From Porticoccus sp. (GTDB lineage Bacteria; Pseudomonadota; Gammaproteobacteria; Pseudomonadales; Porticoccaceae), in the NCBI GenBank assembly GCA_002733125.1, contig NVUM01000020.1:1-35338 (forward strand): a DNA stretch of 35,338 bases, in the 5' to 3' direction. The notes below the pieces were generated by a model, which was not told the origin of the DNA, made no database searches, and was given only the letters and a program-made list of their open reading frames with translations. Shown one piece after another: positions 13,946 through 20,538 of the stretch; the first letter of the stretch is position 1, and each line of letters begins with the position of its first letter. A program made the translations under genes and the position numbers.

Positions 13946-14716
13946 ATGAGTTATTTTGATAGCGTGCGAATTGTGCTGGTTAATAGCACTCATCCCGGAA
14001 ATATCGGCGGGGCTGCTCGCGCCATTAAAAATATGGGATTGTCCAGGCTGTATCTGGTTGCGCCCAGAGACTTCCCTGCTGACCGGGCAGTCTGGCGGGC
14101 GGCAAATGCTGTCGATGTGCTGGATAACGCGATTGTGGTCGACAATCTTGATGAGGCTATAGCCGGTTGTGGTCTGGTGGTGGGCACCAGCGCCCGAGAG
14201 CGTCGTATTCCCTGGCCGTTATTGAACCCCCGTGAGTGCGGCGAACGCGCCTGGTTGGAGGCGGCACACCACGATGTGGCAATCGTTTTTGGCAGGGAGG
14301 ACCGAGGGCTCACCAATGAGGAGCTGCAAAAGTGTAACTATCATGTGCATATTCCCTCCAACCCGGAATACAGTTCGTTGAACCTGGCTGCGGCCGTTCA
14401 GGTGCTGTGCTACGAAGTACGTATGGCGTCATTGTCCGCAGCCCAGAGTGAATCGCCTCCATTGCCCGACTGGGATATGCCCCCTGCCAAGGCAGAAGCT
14501 CTCGAGTTGTATTTTCAGCATTTGGAGCAGGCGTTGGTTGATCTCGGCTTCCATGACCGTGAAAACCCCCGTCAAACCATGACCCGTTTGCGCCGTTTGT
14601 ATGGCCGAATCCGATTGGATGAAATGGAATTGTCGATTCTCCGAGGTGTACTTACTTCCATTCAGAATGCGGTGCATCGCATGCACTCTGCCTTGCAGAA
14701 AAAAACCGATTCATGA
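13946..14716 (+). CDS. trmJ: tRNA (cytidine/uridine-2'-O-)-methyltransferase TrmJ
   Basis: TrmJ is a SPOUT-class methyltransferase that 2'-O-methylates position 32 of several tRNAs. The 256-residue product has the SPOUT motif 1 stretch STHPGNIGGAARAIKNMGL near residues 13-31, AIVFGREDRGLTNEEL in the middle and HIPSNPEYSSLNLAAAVQVL forming the trefoil-knot SAM site. A C-terminal helical extension of about 90 residues includes ENPRQTMTRLRRLYGR. It sits directly upstream of iscR as in E. coli and Pseudomonas. Its stop lies only 20 bases before the first IscR-type site. Confidence 0.95.
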   Translation: MSYFDSVRIVLVNSTHPGNIGGAARAIKNMGLSRLYLVAPRDFPADRAVWRAANAVDVLDNAIVVDNLDEAIAGCGLVVGTSARERRIPWPLLNPRECGERAWLEAAHHDVAIVFGREDRGLTNEELQKCNYHVHIPSNPEYSSLNLAAAVQVLCYEVRMASLSAAQSESPPLPDWDMPPAKAEALELYFQHLEQALVDLGFHDRENPRQTMTRLRRLYGRIRLDEMELSILRGVLTSIQNAVHRMHSALQKKTDS

Positions 14717-14836: not shown

Positions 14837-15304
14837 ATGCGGCTGACAACTCGTGGTCGATACGCGGTCACAGCCATGCTGGATTTGGCGTTAAATAACG
14901 AAAGCGGGCCAATTAGCCTGGCGGACATTTCCCATCGGCAGGAAATCTCGCTTTCCTATCTGGAGCAATTGTTTGCCAAATTGCGCCAGAACAATCTGGT
15001 GAGTAGTGTTCGTGGCCCCGGTGGTGGCTATTGTCTGGCTCGAAGCAGTGATGCCATCAGTGTTGCCGAAATTATTGATGCTGTGAATGAGTCGATTGAT
15101 GCGACCAGTTGTAGTGGCAAGGGTAATTGCCACAACGGTGATATATGTTTGACCCATCACCTCTGGGACGATTTGAGTCGTCAAATTCATCGTTTCCTCA
15201 GCGGTATTTCCTTGGATAGTCTGGTCCATCAACAGGATGTGCAAGTCGTCATGTTGCGCCAGAGCGATCAAGCTGATGCCAATTCAGGCTGCGCAAAAGT
15301 CTAG
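14837..15304 (+). CDS. iscR: Rrf2-family iron-sulfur cluster regulator IscR
   Basis: IscR is a winged-helix repressor that senses Fe-S status through a [2Fe-2S] cluster and controls the isc operon. The ATG at 14837 is chosen because the protein then begins [18 protein letters not shown] like other IscR proteins, and AGGAAA lies about six bases upstream; upstream codons in the same frame do not resemble the family. The 155-residue product (E. coli 162) has the helix-turn-helix with [13 protein letters not shown] and RGPGGGY. The cluster ligands C92, C98, C104 and H107 are all present at the E. coli positions. Because the local iscU is broken, maturation of this IscR would depend on another scaffold (inference). 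Confidence 0.96.
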
Positions 15305-15314
15305 GAGCCTTTGC

Positions 15315-16529
15315 ATGAAATTGCCTATATATCTCGATTATGCTGCTACCACGCCGGTTGATCCACGGGTGGCTGCCAAGATGTCAGAGTGCCTTACCAA
15401 TGACGGTATCTTTGGCAACCCGGCCTCGCGTTCGCACGCCTTTGGCTGGCAGGCAGAGGCAGCGGTCGAAGCGGCCAGGAGCCAAGTGGCAGAGCTTGTT
15501 AATGCAGACCCAAGGGAGATTATCTGGACTTCTGGTGCCACCGAGGCCGATAACCTGGCGATTAAGGGTTGTGCCCACTTCAACCAGAAGAAGGGCAAGC
15601 ATATTATTACTTCAAAAATCGAGCACAAGGCTGTTTTGGACACTTGTCGACAGTTGGAGCGTGAGGGCTTCAAGGTGACTTATCTCGACCCTGATGCTGA
15701 CGGCATTATTCAGCCACAGGTCGTCGCCGATGCCATTCGTGAAGATACAACGCTGGTTTCGCTAATGCATGTCAATAATGAGATTGGCACGATTAACGAT
15801 ATTGCCGCTATCGGTGAGATCTGTCGTGACCGGAAAGTATTTTTTCATGTGGACGCCGCCCAGAGTACCGGCAAACAGCCGATTGATCTGCAGGCAATGA
15901 AAGTCGATTTAATGGCGTTTTCCGCCCATAAAACCTACGGCCCAAAGGGGATCGGTGCCCTTTATGTCCGTCGGAAACCGCGTGTGCGCATTGAGGCGCA
16001 AACCCACGGCGGTGGTCATGAGCGGGGCATGCGCTCCGGTACGCTGCCTACCCATCAGATTGTCGGTATGGGCGAAGCTTTTCGGATAGCCAGGGAAGAA
16101 ATGGCCGAGGAAAACAAACGGGTACTGGCGTTACGCAATCGTCTTTGGGATGGCATTCGTGACCTGGACGAGGTGCATCTCAATGGCTCCATGCAGCAGC
16201 GCATTGCTGGCAATTTAAATGTTAGTTTTGCCTTTGTCGAAGGGGAGTCGTTGATCATGGCGTTGAAAGACCTGGCCGTTTCTTCCGGGTCTGCCTGTAC
16301 TTCAGCGAGCCTGGAGCCCTCCTATGTATTGCGTGCGCTGGGGCTTGACGATGAGTTGGCGCACAGCTCTATTCGCTTTTCCATTGGTCGCTTTACTACC
16401 GCTGAAGAAATTGATTATGCGATTGTCAAAGTGCGTGAGGCGGTTACCAAATTGCGTGAGTTATCTCCGCTTTGGGACATGTTTAAGGACGGTGTCGATC
16501 TCAGTCAGGTCGAATGGGCCGCACATTAA
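15315..16529 (+). CDS. iscS: Cysteine desulfurase IscS
   Basis: IscS is a PLP enzyme that removes sulfur from cysteine for Fe-S clusters, tRNA thiolation and other sulfur uses. The ATG at 15315 has AGGAGC overlapping the iscR stop, and the product is 404 residues, exactly the E. coli length. It has [20 protein letters not shown], the PLP lysine in [31 protein letters not shown] and the catalytic cysteine of the mobile loop in [14 protein letters not shown] (E. coli C328). The C-terminal segment used to dock IscU and other acceptors, [19 protein letters not shown], is preserved. It therefore looks fully functional although the adjoining scaffold gene is broken, consistent with its wider duties such as tRNA modification. 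Confidence 0.97.
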
Positions 16530-16546: not shown

Positions 16547-16964
16547 ATGGCTTACAGCGAAAAGTTCTGGACCATTACGGAAATCCCCGCAATGTCGGCA
16601 AGCTGGACGACAAATCCAGCAATGTCGGGACCTGCATGGTCGGAGCCCCGGCTTGTGGTGATGTGATGCGCTTGCAGATCCAGGTGAATGACCTCGGCAT
16701 CATCGAAGATGCCAAATTCAAGACCTACGGCTGTGGTTCAGCGATCGCCTCCAGTTCCCTGTTGAGCGAGTGGGTCAAGGGCAAAACCCTCGAACAGGCC
16801 GCTGAAATCAAGAACACCCAAATTGCAGAGGAGCTGGCACTTCCCCCGGTCAAGATACATGTTCTGTATTGGCAGAAGATGCTATCAAGGCCGCTGTCGG
16901 CGATGTGTGTCGCAAACGGCAAATGGGTACCGAACAGACAGAACCTGGTCTCGGAGAAAAGTAA
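16547..16964 (+). pseudogene. iscU: iscU, Fe-S scaffold, broken by two single-base frameshifts
   Basis: IscU is the scaffold on which IscS and iron build clusters. The ATG at 16547 gives MAYSEK as expected, but one base (a G in GTT) is missing after 16564, so the frame moves. In the shifted frame a nearly perfect IscU follows: [45 protein letters not shown] and LPPVKIH. One T is then missing between 16860 and 16861, so the frame shifts again just where the third essential cysteine ([13 protein letters not shown]) should be read. The final frame runs to a TAA that overlaps the iscA ATG. An in-frame TTG at 16540 could restore the N-terminus, but the critical third cysteine would still be lost. 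Sequencing error is possible for this gene alone; the state of hscB, hscA and fdx argues for true decay. Confidence 0.85.
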
Positions 16965-17287
16965 TGGCAATTACGATGACCCCCGCCGCTGAGCAATACA
17001 TAATCAGGCATTTATCTCACCGTGGGCATGGGGTGGGTATTTGCCTGGGTCTTAAAACCACCGGGTGCTCGGGACTCTCCTATGTTCTTGAGTTTGTGGA
17101 TCAGCAGGGTGAAGACGATCAGGTTTTTAGTCGTGGTGAGGCAAAATTGTTTATCGATCCGAAAAGTCTGGCCTATTTGGACGGTACCGAGCTGGATTTT
17201 TTCAAGGAAGGACTCAATGAGGGTTTTCAGTTCAGAAACCCCAATGTCAAGGAAGAGTGTGGTTGCGGCGAAAGCTTCCATATCTAG
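16964..17287 (+). CDS. iscA: A-type iron-sulfur carrier IscA
   Basis: IscA is an A-type carrier that helps deliver clusters, notably [4Fe-4S], to target proteins. The 107-residue product equals the E. coli length. The three conserved cysteines are present: [15 protein letters not shown] near residue 35 and EECGCGESF at the C-terminus. The ATG overlaps the final base of the ancestral iscU stop (TAATG), so in the ancestral operon it was translationally coupled to iscU; the frameshifts upstream could now reduce its expression. The reading frame itself shows no damage. Confidence 0.95.
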
Positions 17288-17381
17288 AGTGCTTTGCACA
17301 GAATGACTGAACGGCATTATTCTACGGTGCCATCCCTGTTCACTGCTGTCAGCAGCCCGATGTCATAACCAGAATTTCTTC

Positions 17382-17912
17382 GTGGATATCACCAGCAACT
17401 ATTTTGAGGTGTTTGGGTTGCCTGTTGAACACGACATCAATCCCAGACTATTGAGCGAGCGATATCACGATTTGCAGCGACAATTTTACCCTGATCGGCA
17501 TGTGGCCAGAACTGCCCGTGAAAGACGGCTATCGGAACAATACACCACGTTTATCAATCAGGCTTACGGTGAACTGAAATCACCGTTGCATAGGGCTCTG
17601 TATCTATTGGGAATGACGGGAATTGACCCTGGGAATGAGTTGCTCTCGACATTGGAGCCCGATTGTCTGATGCAGCAAATGGCTCTCAGGGATGCGCTTA
17701 CCGCAGTGCGTACTGCAGGTGATCCGGAGATCAGATTACGGGAAATCGCAGACATTGTGACAGGCCAATATGCAGCATTCCAGCATGAATTTAGTGAACA
17801 ATACAGCAGGACCGATGTTTCCGGTGCCACTGATACAGTGGCCAAGATGTAGTTTTTTTAAAGGCTCCTGAGAGAAGTTGAGCAGCTTGAACATGAACTA
17901 GGCGATTATTGA
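17382..17912 (+). pseudogene. hscB: hscB, J-domain co-chaperone, with HPD lost and two nonsense codons
   Basis: HscB brings IscU to the Hsp70 HscA and stimulates its ATPase through the J-domain HPD motif. From the GTG at 17382 the J domain is recognisable (YFEVFGLP, LSERYHDLQRQF, FINQAYGELKSPLHRALYLL), but the motif reads YPD at residues 36-38: TAC where CAC is expected. The frame then stops at TAG 17850-17852 and again at TAA 17859-17861. Beyond these stops the same frame continues as RLLREVEQLEHELGDY to a TGA at 17910-17912, the typical HscB end. With the stops read through it would be 176 residues, close to the family's 171-175. The Y in YPD and the TAG each equal one C-to-T change; TAA could also be. 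A truncated 156-residue product might still be made, but it could not be expected to work. Confidence 0.88.
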
Positions 17913-17925
17913 GTGGTAAATCATT

Positions 17926-18352
17926 GTGGTCCTGCTACAGATTTCTGAACCTGGCCAGTCGCCAGAATCCCATCAGCATCTGCGCGCAGTCGGTATCGAC
18001 CTCGGCACTACCAATTCACAGGTGGCTACTGTGAGGAGTGGTACTCACTAGATACTGACGGACAGTGCCGGCAATCAACTTCTACCCTCTGTCGTTCGCT
18101 ATCAGGCAAATGGTGCTGTCGCAGCGCCAGGCGACCAAGGATGCTGCTACGTTAGCCGGATTGAAAGTATTGCGCTTGCTCAACGAGCCTACCGCAGCGG
18201 CCGTTGCCTATGGTCTTGACCAGCAGGGAGAAGGATTGGTCGCCGTCTATGATCTGGGTGGCGGGACATTTGATATCTCTGTTCTGAGATTATCCCTAGG
18301 TGTCTTTGAGGTTTTGTCTACGGGTGGTGATTCAGCCCTCGGTGGTGTAGAC
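17926..18352 (+). pseudogene. hscA: hscA remnant, Hsp70 of the ISC system, with stop and deletions
   Basis: The start reads (V)[35 protein letters not shown], the typical HscA beginning with the Hsp70 nucleotide-binding motif. A TAG interrupts at 18049-18051, after which the frame resumes with [15 protein letters not shown]. Near 18115-18124 the sequence jumps, with a frame change, to [20 protein letters not shown], which in intact HscA lies about 80 residues later. It then reads [30 protein letters not shown] and [16 protein letters not shown] before being cut at about 18350. Roughly 400 residues, including all of the substrate-binding domain, are missing. The open frame at 18065-18451 is a by-product of this rearrangement and not a gene. 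Confidence 0.92.
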
Positions 18353-18451
18353 CCTGATTCGCGTCTCAGTTGTCAGGCGCTTGTGACTGACCGGGATTTA
18401 GTTGTAGAAATACCCAAGTACACGATAAATACGGTTTCGGAACAGCATTAG
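18353..18451 (+). pseudogene. fdx: fdx remnant, C-terminal end of the ISC [2Fe-2S] ferredoxin, fused to hscA
   Basis: Directly after the hscA piece, in the same frame, the translation becomes [20 protein letters not shown] followed by [12 protein letters not shown] and a TAG. This is the C-terminal end of the ISC ferredoxin Fdx, which has (E)PESRLSCQARVTDEDLVVEI in E. coli. The first roughly 80 residues, carrying three of the four cluster cysteines, are gone; only the last cysteine (RLSC) remains. One deletion, estimated at about 1.4-1.5 kb from family lengths, would explain the join. iscX starts 15 bases after this stop, so the downstream gene is untouched. Confidence 0.9.
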
Positions 18452-18466
18452 CACGGGAGGGTGACG

Positions 18467-18667
18467 GTGTCGCTAAAGTGGACGGATGTAATCGATATTG
18501 CGATTGAGTTAACAGAAGCCCGGCCAGATGTGGATCCCCGTACCGTGAATTTTGTCGATTTACGAGATTGGGTGTTGGCGCTGGATGAGTTCGATGATGA
18601 TCCGGCCCATTGTGGTGAAAAAATCCTTGAAGCCATCCAGATGGCATGGATTGAAGAACTCGATTAG
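18467..18667 (+). CDS. iscX: IscX (YfhJ) family protein
   Basis: IscX is a small acidic protein that binds IscS (and iron) and modulates cluster assembly. The GTG at 18467 is chosen because GGGAGG lies six bases upstream and the protein then begins MSLKWTDVIDIAI, like E. coli MGLKWTD; an in-frame GTG at 18461 is too close to the ribosome site. The 66-residue product (E. coli 66) has the family features DPRTVNFVDLRDWV and DEFDDDPAHCGEKILEAIQM with its acidic end. It is intact although the four upstream scaffold/chaperone/ferredoxin genes are broken, suggesting that its link to IscS is still under selection (inference). Confidence 0.93.
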   Translation: MSLKWTDVIDIAIELTEARPDVDPRTVNFVDLRDWVLALDEFDDDPAHCGEKILEAIQMAWIEELD

Positions 18668-18705
18668 AATGAACCACAGCTTCAATATGCTACCAAGGGG
18701 TGTTA

Positions 18706-20538
18706 ATGAGCTCAAAAGAAGAGCTTTATAAAGTACTGGTTGAATCAGTTCCTTACGGCACCCTTTTCTTTGCTTACGGCGTCTGTATCGATGCCAACAA
18801 AAATGCACTTGCCCTGTTGGGCTGCGATCTCAAGCAGCTGGTGGGCGCTTCAGTGGACAGCATTACCGGTGACGAATCCACCGCGCTTGTCGATCTCAAG
18901 TTGCAACTGAAAAAGGCCTTGCGGGACCGTACTGAAAAGCTGGACTGGTCATGTCCCGGTCGTCCCGAAACTGTGGCTGTCAGTATTGTTTATGTGAGTG
19001 ACGACAATAGAGAACTGGTGGTGATGCTGCACACTCAGGAATTGGCCTGCGATGTTGCTTCACCCTCTGTCAGTGAGCCGGGATTCGTTGCCGGTGCTGA
19101 ATCACTCGAAAATGTCGAAGTTAGCTCCCCTGATGTGATATTGCCCGCCAGCGATATTTATGAGGGTGCTGGTGTTGTTGTCGATGATAGAGATGCCAGC
19201 AATCCAGGCGTCAAGCCTTGGGAGGAGTCTGCCAGGGATCACTATTATGACAGTCTTACCGGTTTGCCCAATCGGCAATTGCTGATTCAGTCCATCAGCC
19301 GGTATCTGGCTCTCCATGACAATCAGCCGATATGTGGTGCCCTGATGATTGTCGACCTTGATCACTTCAAGGATATTAATGATTCCTGGGGCAATGCTGT
19401 GGGAGATCAGGTGATCAAGAAGATTGGTCAGACGTTGTCTCGCCTTGCTACTGGGGGTAACGTGGTCGCCCGTATGAGCGGCGACGAGTTCGTGCTTTTC
19501 ATTCCCCATCTGTCTGATGACTTGTCAAAAGCCGCCTGGAGTGCGCAGTCGTTGGCCGAAAAGCTGGGTGAAATGGTTGCGAGCCCTCTGTTTCTCGATG
19601 GCCATGAAGTCATACTGACTGCAAGTGTCGGTATTGCACTTATTTCGGACAGCGGCATCAGTGCCGAGCGCGTACTCCAGTTTGCCGATACGGCCATGTA
19701 CGAGGCGAAGCGCAAGGGCCGCAACAGCATCGCTTTTTTTGATCCGTGCATCACGGAGAAAGCGCAACGACAGATTGGCATGAATACCCGATTGCGGAAG
19801 GCTATGGATAACCACGAGTTTGTGCTCTATATTCAGCCGCAAATTTCTGTTGAGACAGGACAGTTATTGGGTGGTGAGGCGCTATTGCGTTGGATGAACT
19901 CAGATAAAATAACCAACATGCCTTCGGAGTTTATTCCGGTACTTGAATCTTCCGGTCTGATCGTAGACGTGGGTCGGTGGGTCATTCGGACCTCTTGTGA
20001 GTACATCAGGAATTTTATTGATCAGGGAATCTGGCAAGACCACATGCGGCTCGGCATCAATATCAGCCCACGCCAGTTTCGCGATCCCCAGTTGCTGGAC
20101 ATCGTCCAGCACAGCATGAGCAGCTACAACATAGACCCGAGCTTCCTTAATTTCGAAGTGACTGAAAATCTGGTCATTGAGGATGTGGATGAGGCCATTC
20201 GCAAGATGGAGGCAATCAAGTCGCTGGGCTCCATGTTTTCAATTGATGACTTCGGCATTGGCTATTCCTCCATGATATACCTGAAACGTCTGCCGTTTGA
20301 CCAACTGAAGATTGATCGTGAGTTTATCCGAAATATTCATCGCGACCCCGAGAGTCGGGGTATCGTGGAAGCTATCATGGCTGTGTCAAAGCAGTATGGT
20401 TTGAAAGTTACCGCGGAAGGTGTCGAGACACCGGAAGCCCTTGAGATACTTCGGGAGCTGGGTTGCCATTCCTATCAGGGTGCCCACTTTAGTATGCCTA
20501 TTTCCTGTGAGCGTTTTACCAAACTGCTGGCTGCCTGA
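18706..20538 (+). CDS. PAS-like/GGDEF/EAL cyclic-di-GMP signalling protein
   Basis: This protein probably makes and/or degrades cyclic di-GMP. The ATG at 18706 has AAGGGG five bases upstream; the GTG at 18700 overlaps that site. Of 610 residues, 1-110 form a PAS-like sensor without membrane segments and 110-175 an acidic linker. The GGDEF domain at about 180-345 starts DSLTGLPNRQLL and has the signature as SGDEF (258-262) instead of GGDEF. The EAL domain (about 365-605) has intact metal and catalytic motifs: EALLRW at 391, NISPRQF, FEVTEN, DDFGIGYSS, QLKIDREF and TAEGVET. Phosphodiesterase activity is therefore likely. Cyclase activity is uncertain, although some SGDEF variants are active. 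It begins 38 bases after iscX, where ndk normally follows, so it may be expressed with the isc operon. Confidence 0.92.
   Translation: MSSKEELYKVLVESVPYGTLFFAYGVCIDANKNALALLGCDLKQLVGASVDSITGDESTALVDLKLQLKKALRDRTEKLDWSCPGRPETVAVSIVYVSDDNRELVVMLHTQELACDVASPSVSEPGFVAGAESLENVEVSSPDVILPASDIYEGAGVVVDDRDASNPGVKPWEESARDHYYDSLTGLPNRQLLIQSISRYLALHDNQPICGALMIVDLDHFKDINDSWGNAVGDQVIKKIGQTLSRLATGGNVVARMSGDEFVLFIPHLSDDLSKAAWSAQSLAEKLGEMVASPLFLDGHEVILTASVGIALISDSGISAERVLQFADTAMYEAKRKGRNSIAFFDPCITEKAQRQIGMNTRLRKAMDNHEFVLYIQPQISVETGQLLGGEALLRWMNSDKITNMPSEFIPVLESSGLIVDVGRWVIRTSCEYIRNFIDQGIWQDHMRLGINISPRQFRDPQLLDIVQHSMSSYNIDPSFLNFEVTENLVIEDVDEAIRKMEAIKSLGSMFSIDDFGIGYSSMIYLKRLPFDQLKIDREFIRNIHRDPESRGIVEAIMAVSKQYGLKVTAEGVETPEALEILRELGCHSYQGAHFSMPISCERFTKLLAA

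Follow-up and report, generated by a model that had tools for sequence, protein, structure and literature searches.

The ISC locus of the window

In the organization typified by E. coli, the genes of the iron-sulfur cluster (ISC) assembly system form an operon of the order iscRSUA-hscBA-fdx-iscX. The stretch of DNA analysed here, hereafter called the window, comprises 35,338 nucleotides and represents the entire contig C14 of G000, a Porticoccus metagenome-assembled genome (MAG) of 2.26 Mb, with a completeness of 86.8% and a contamination of 4.3%. It carries such an operon in a state of selective decay: the core genes iscU, hscB, hscA and fdx are all broken, whereas iscR, iscS, iscA and iscX are intact, a pattern claimed from the sequence alone in an earlier note and confirmed here by profile cut-offs and by comparison with G011. 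The latter genome, from a very close relative with a complete iscRSUA-hscBA-fdx-iscX operon, served as the reference for all lesions of the window. The order trmJ, iscR, iscS, iscU, iscA, hscB, hscA, fdx, iscX and a gene for a GGDEF-EAL-type protein is identical in both, and the ISC operon of G011 follows the E. coli order, whereas its core is broken in the window.

The iscU pseudogene (16547..16964; like all features given here, on the + strand) contains two frameshifts, of which the first affects a short homopolymer close to codon 5 and the second lies between positions 16859 and 16860, at codons 105/106 for His105 and Cys106, and its frame does not stay open through the conserved Cys, the second frameshift falling at Cys106. 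Compared to G011, the hscB pseudogene (17382..17852) has its HPD motif changed to YPD and is interrupted by a TAG after codon 156 of 176, followed by a TAA, leaving no J-protein with an HPD motif but a truncated one. Two fragments of hscA subsist, the first (17926..18123) corresponding to codons 1-66 of the G011 gene with one internal stop, the second (18119..18370) to codons 164-247, flanked by deletions of about 0.3 kb and 1.4 kb; as read by eye, the first deletion is bounded in G011 by a pair of 7-base direct repeats. Finally, fdx is reduced to a 3' remnant of codons 78-112 (18344..18448), its 5' two thirds being missing with respect to G011. The frameshifts, nonsense codons, HPD change and deletions reported in the earlier note were thus all recovered.

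No second ISC core was found elsewhere in G000. The single IscU (NifU_N) match of a profile search of the whole genome is the broken copy of the window, no HscA was found over the cut-off in the genome, full-length Hsp70 proteins scoring below it, and no fdx_isc match reached its cut-off in the genome, the other matches falling below. G000 accordingly possesses an intact IscS but, as far as was found, no intact IscU, HscB, HscA or Isc-type ferredoxin, in agreement with the claim that the IscU/HscBA cycle is no longer used. As a separate observation, G000 holds two full-length Hsp70 genes (C24:12808-14610 and C28:208-2013), presumably DnaK, where its relatives list at most one; they may stem from the 4.3% contamination.

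The conserved part of the operon consists of iscR (14837..15301; 155 aa, three-Cys region present, TIGR02010 215.1 bits for a cut-off of 207.55, 98% identity to G011), iscS (15315..16526; 404 aa, TIGR02006 744.1 bits, cut-off 643.2), which still possesses the IscU-docking tail with a full tail score of 137/137, iscA (16964..17284; 107 aa, open, TIGR02011 157.2 bits, cut-off 150.6, 93.5% identity to G011) and iscX (18461..18664; 68 aa, open, TIGR03412 114 bits, cut-off 40.4). Comparison with relatives places the syntenic anchor trmJ, a name which we take from homology, 5' of iscR (13946..14716), and a gene whose product we take to possess GGDEF-EAL domains downstream of iscX (18700..20538). In line with the earlier note, the flanking genes compared with relatives, i.e., suhB, trmJ, the GGDEF-EAL gene, ndk and rlmN, are free of stops and frameshifts. 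Between 13946 and 22317, adjacent genes differ in their nearest relative within the clade of six genomes described below, ndk of G000 being close to G011 and its trmJ to G002 and G009, which points to recombination.

ISC decay and SUF genes in Porticoccus and the Porticoccaceae

The clade consists of marine bacteria akin to an oil-degrading species. The ISC core has been lost in five of its six genomes (G000, G002, G005, G009 and G015), G011 remaining complete. In G002, a single deletion extends from codon 45 of iscU to the start of iscX, which also carries a stop. G005, G009 and G015 have nonsense in iscU and deletions in common, leaving a 5' piece of iscU, a small piece of hscA and codons 44-68 of iscX. 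As a result, iscA is lost and iscX is broken or truncated in all four relatives of G000, while iscR and iscS are open in all five decayed genomes and IscS is over the cut-off in all six genomes of the clade; an apparent break in iscS of G015 was rejected, being a run of N. G009 is a single contig of 2,474,654 bp and apparently corresponds to the cultured isolate P. hydrocarbonoclasticus MCTG13d, whose genome was assembled from PacBio reads at 291x (PMC4472908). As to whether close relatives carry the same lesions, the answer is thus a mixed one: the core loss recurs in four of them but with different lesions, and G011 is intact. The deletions of the decayed genomes display three separate histories.

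No ISC lesion was detected in the 11 Porticoccus genomes devoid of SUF genes, the operon being whole on one contig in seven of them, spread over two in G001 and cut by contig ends in G004, G008 and G014; the split iscU of G001 was dismissed as a lesion, since it reflects two contig ends. A missing HscB profile match proved unreliable as a marker of ISC loss, because G006 lacks it and yet has an open hscB by tblastn; the HscB profile was set aside, and ISC loss was scored by IscU and by comparison of the whole operon.

A genome-wide search revealed a SUF system in G000, namely sufBCDS-sufA-sufT-sufE downstream of an IscR-like gene. The SufB and SufD core is present, SufB scoring 891.7 bits with its equivalog model (cut-off 717) and SufS 565.4 bits with its subfamily model (cut-off 475.1); the SufE-like protein matched the CsdE/SufE models only below their cut-offs. 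The sufS and sufE-like genes are open in all six clade genomes, and sufC is open (249 aa) in G005, G009, G011 and G015. Apparent stops in sufB and sufT of G011 were attributed to over-long starts in the query sequences, and that in iscR2 of the same genome to a slightly earlier end beyond the conserved part; none of them was retained as a lesion.

Within the genus, SufB or SufD occurs in 6/17 genomes, which are exactly G011 and the five decayed members of the clade. Within the Porticoccaceae, 15 of 112 genomes contain SUF and three of these 15 a full-length open IscU (G011, G017, G119), G029 showing only a weak NifU-like match inside its suf region, whereas an open IscU occurs in 89 of the 97 genomes without SUF, one of them (G001) having it split over contigs. 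In Fisher tests that ignore shared ancestry, SUF is associated with the lack of IscU at p = 1e-8 in the family and p = 0.001 in the genus. SUF is therefore present and tracks ISC loss at both levels, as the replacement of the iron-sulfur machinery suggested in the earlier note would have it. Its arrival within Porticoccus was probably one event; no empty insertion site was found, the mgtC-like upstream neighbour being fully matched in only 4/17 genomes. In the decayed genomes of the clade, SUF would be the sole iron-sulfur assembly system able to support growth.

The ratio of nonsynonymous to synonymous substitutions (dN/dS) between G000 and G011 amounts to 0.047 for iscS, 0.058 for iscR, 0.12 for iscA and 0.18 for iscX among the kept genes, to 0.09 for iscU, 0.10 for the hscA fragments, 0.14 for fdx and 0.31 for hscB among the remnants, and to 0.03-0.15 for the intact neighbours trmJ, GGDEF-EAL, ndk and rlmN. 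Across the clade pairs, the values for iscS and iscR are mostly 0.04-0.08, that of the G005-G015 pair (0.19) being distorted by the run of N in iscS of G015. As most remnants have low ratios, the core appears to have been broken recently in comparison with the split of G000 and G011; hscB evolves fast throughout the genus, genomes from outside the clade sharing 39-60% identity with the G011 gene. Changes in G000 and G011 were also counted at sites where the ISC-intact outgroups used do not vary. Their number is equal in both genomes for iscS (13/304), iscR (5/107) and iscX (5/45), and differs between G000 and G011 for iscU (3/104 vs 0/107), iscA (7/82 vs 3/82), hscB (19/74 vs 10/74) and hscA (15/127 vs 30/429). 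Judged from these substitution patterns, IscS and IscR are constrained in G000, and the small counts for IscA may point to a relaxation. The view that the kept genes are still used is supported for IscS and IscR, with low ratios and frames open in the five decayed genomes, but is weakened for IscA and IscX, which are lost or broken in four decayed relatives, IscA also exceeding G011 in changes at invariant sites.

IscS without IscU and the docking surface

Outside of the window, other loci have similarly retained IscS in the lack of its scaffold partner. IscS over the cut-off persists without IscU in all five decayed Porticoccus genomes, and an IscS-like gene occurs in all seven other SUF-containing Porticoccaceae without a standard IscU, only that of G029 exceeding the IscS cut-off and that of G112 containing one TGA within the profile span. 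In G018, G022, G033 and several Cellvibrionaceae, sufB directly follows iscS. Two Gilvimarinus loci (L097, L104) and that of a Cellvibrionaceae MAG (L105) are organized as trmJ-iscR-iscS-sufBCD-...-sufE-ndk, and their SUF genes occupy the position of the ISC core in Porticoccus. Like the window, these hybrid trmJ-iscR-iscS-sufBCDS loci (L097, L104, G018, G022, G033) combine iscRS with SUF and lack the IscU core, but their SUF stands directly behind iscS, whereas in the Porticoccus clade it is located elsewhere in the genome and ISC remnants persist. In G112 and G113, trmJ-iscS is followed by a GGDEF-type gene, neither system being matched in between.

A comparable arrangement is described, in the available part of the source, for Mycobacterium tuberculosis, which possesses a complete SUF and an ISC system truncated to iscS (PMC10848736). 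As in the window, SUF assembles the clusters there and iscS stands without iscA, iscU, hscA and hscB. Unlike M. tuberculosis, as far as it is covered in that part, Porticoccus combines within a single genus the remnants, a sister genome with an intact operon and the stages in between, and has iscR beside iscS.

The docking of IscU provides a structural framework for these comparisons. According to the available part of PMC2854127, E. coli IscU touches IscS at residues 309-316, at residue 347 and along the helix 379-391, an IscS devoid of residues 376-404 fails to bind IscU, and both TusA and ThiI dock on other sites than IscU. The numbering of the 404-residue E. coli IscS was transferred to that of G011, the Cys328 loop being in register. 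A total of 111 iscS loci were scored, of which 15 duplicates, recognized by exact 200-base stretches in common with a twin, were dropped to leave 96. All 70 loci with an IscU match above 150 bits, some of which may still come from near-identical genomes, have a tail score of at least 105 (full score 137), and all 20 loci without any IscU match have a score of 52 or less. Six loci with partial IscU matches were set apart, i.e., G001 (contig break), G002, G005, G009, G015 and L135, the last with an IscU match of 48 bits and no IscS tail. Among unique sequences of trmJ-iscS loci, the tail is degraded in 20/20 without IscU and in 0/57 with IscU; the window is counted in the 70 loci but not in these 57 sequences.

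Identity to the consensus of the sequences with IscU, compared between the 57 and the 20 unique sequences, falls from 0.94 to 0.21 in the helix 379-391, from 0.95 to 0.57 in the segment 309-316, from 1.00 to 0.50 at residue 347 and from 0.83 to 0.07 in the terminal residues 392-404. Elsewhere, the rest of the protein passes from 0.84 to 0.65, the Cys loop from 1.00 to 0.90, and the six TusA-contact positions from 0.94 to 0.91. Two of these contact positions, 49 and 52, are occupied in this group by residues other than those of E. coli, which agrees with the lack of TusA mentioned below.

Within the Porticoccus clade, the docking tail has not been lost and is complete in G000 and G002. A change L386R occurs in G005 and G009, the latter also having H404R, both at sites at least 97% conserved in the IscS that coexist with IscU. 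L386R was also read by eye in G015 behind its run of N, which spoils two of the IscS changes listed for this genome. A tree of IscS, obtained with a quick method, places G029 and L095 amid sequences that have the tail, and two independent tail losses therefore appear fairly clear; for the remaining tail-less IscS, whose branches are long or uncertain in their placement, either an ancient loss or a gene of foreign origin is conceivable. No suf genes occur in the iscS loci L095 and L136, considered as loci alone. The locus of G029 (L205), trmJ-iscR-iscS-iscA-GGDEF without iscU, has an IscS tail eroded by point changes and offers a clean single case of tail decay.

Probable replacement of ISC by SUF in Porticoccus

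Taken together, the window most probably (with a probability of roughly 85%) represents an intermediate stage in the replacement of ISC by SUF in Porticoccus. SUF would have been acquired by the ancestor of the clade through horizontal transfer and would then have taken over cluster assembly, making IscU, HscB, HscA and Fdx, and subsequently IscA and IscX, dispensable. IscS would be retained as a sulfur donor for tasks other than those of SufS, such as tRNA thiolation and other sulfur transfer, and IscR as a regulator that senses iron-sulfur clusters; in the longer term, the IscU-binding C-terminus of IscS would be lost as well. SufS of E. coli is said to be restricted to iron-sulfur work, which fits with an IscS kept for other sulfur transfers.

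Several observations weigh against the replacement of ISC by SUF, or at least complicate it. The sufC gene of G000 (L081:10844-11599, contig C2) is frameshifted in a G run, which affects the last 29 codons or so and may represent either a sequence error or an impairment of SUF in this genome too, and G002 shows only sufD to sufE, on a contig of 4.3 kb. G011, G017 and G119 possess both SUF and IscU, and therefore SUF need not remove ISC. Conversely, eight Porticoccaceae without SUF have no IscU match; five of them are less than 80% complete and in G030 IscS runs off the contig end, but G094 (91% complete) and G117 (94%) lack a match for SUF, IscU and full IscS altogether. As a side observation, these two genomes may reflect either an assembly gap or another iron-sulfur solution. 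As to the donor of SUF, SufB is matched in 160/293 genomes of the order, and that of the clade shares 84% identity with other families of the order and about 82% with G022 and G033 of its own family. TusA is a partner of IscS in E. coli, and no TusA match (PF01206) was found in any of the 17 Porticoccus genomes, a control being found in 11 of 14; the route of tRNA thiolation by IscS, if it operates here, would thus not be that of E. coli. Finally, G112 and G113 have no iscR between trmJ and iscS, so that IscR is not always kept.

That the lesions are errors of sequencing or assembly in a MAG whose true operon is intact is very improbable. The incompleteness and contamination of G000 speak for such an origin, and the iscU frameshift in the short homopolymer may indeed be an error, since a G run in sufC of this MAG likewise carries a frameshift. 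However, clean-junction deletions of hundreds of bases, in-frame stops and the change of HPD to YPD are hardly the kind of mistake that base calling makes, the flanking genes compared with relatives have open frames, and the same core has been lost by other lesions in four relatives, one of them apparently a PacBio-sequenced isolate; as a whole explanation, error was rejected on these grounds. A general erosion of the genome instead of a replacement by SUF seems just as remote. The clade genomes, of 2.2-2.7 Mb, are among the smaller ones sampled from the order, but the smaller SUF-less G001 (1.3 Mb) has the whole operon, the SUF-less G014 (1.2 Mb) has it as far as its contig reaches, and the compared flanking genes are undamaged.

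Two further questions concern the course of the replacement. The core might have been inactivated only once, in the ancestor of the five decayed genomes after the split of G011, and then eroded separately, a scenario which we consider somewhat less probable than its opposite. In favor of it, a tree of the flanking genes groups the five decayed genomes to the exclusion of G011 (support 91/98 for six genes and 56/70 when only the four non-isc ones are used), a change of the iscU start codon is common to G002 and G015, and no other remnant of G000 reaches the dN/dS of its hscB; as hscB is deleted in the other four genomes, a first lesion located there would be invisible. Against it, no deletion or nonsense change is common to G000, G002 and the G005/G009/G015 group, the start-codon change is absent from G005 and G009, the 5' parts of iscU show no disabling change common to the three decayed lineages, and the flanking genes conflict on the nearest kin within the clade, which makes recombination likely. 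It is also conceivable, but rather unlikely, that IscA and IscX have been kept in G000 for a continued function together with IscS and SUF. Both are open and score over their cut-offs, their dN/dS are below 1, that of iscA being within the range of intact neighbours, the changes of iscX at invariant sites are as few as in G011, and G029, of another genus, has iscA without iscU. Yet both genes are lost or broken in four decayed genomes, IscA of G000 is changed at more of the invariant sites than that of G011, and SUF supplies its own SufA.

The replacement of ISC by SUF thus appears real, recent and possibly repeated, ordinary in kind but unusual in the extent to which the process is visible. 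Whether it follows a fixed order is, in our estimation, an even bet: SUF would come in first, IscU-HscBA-Fdx would go out by lesions peculiar to each lineage, IscA and IscX would follow, and the docking surface of IscS (helix 379-391 and tail) would go last, IscS, mostly with IscR, staying as a platform in which the catalytic loop and the docking residues for tRNA thiolation hold; in some lineages, SUF would settle exactly at the site of the former ISC core.

Most bacteria carry a single iron-sulfur system, most often SUF, according to the available part of PMC11559095. The Porticoccus genomes fit this distribution as ISC-only, both or SUF-only; the rule, as stated in that part, describes a distribution, whereas Porticoccus shows the transition at the level of the sequence. 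Both this one-system rule and the lone iscS beside SUF of M. tuberculosis are already published, in the parts of PMC11559095 and PMC10848736 referred to above. No account of iron-sulfur systems in Porticoccus was found in the open-licence PubMed Central (PMC) literature and, as far as searches of that literature show, the series of stages within one genus and the decay of the IscU-docking surface that accompanies the lack of IscU are new. The preference for one system and the exchange of an essential machinery are usually inferred from distant genomes. With intact, half-decayed and deleted versions in close relatives, one of them apparently cultured, the exchange becomes directly testable. In this respect, the comparison of IscS proteins represents a natural test of which surface of a hub enzyme serves which partner and, if the fixed order is true, the age of an IscU loss would be readable in any genome from the condition of its IscS tail.

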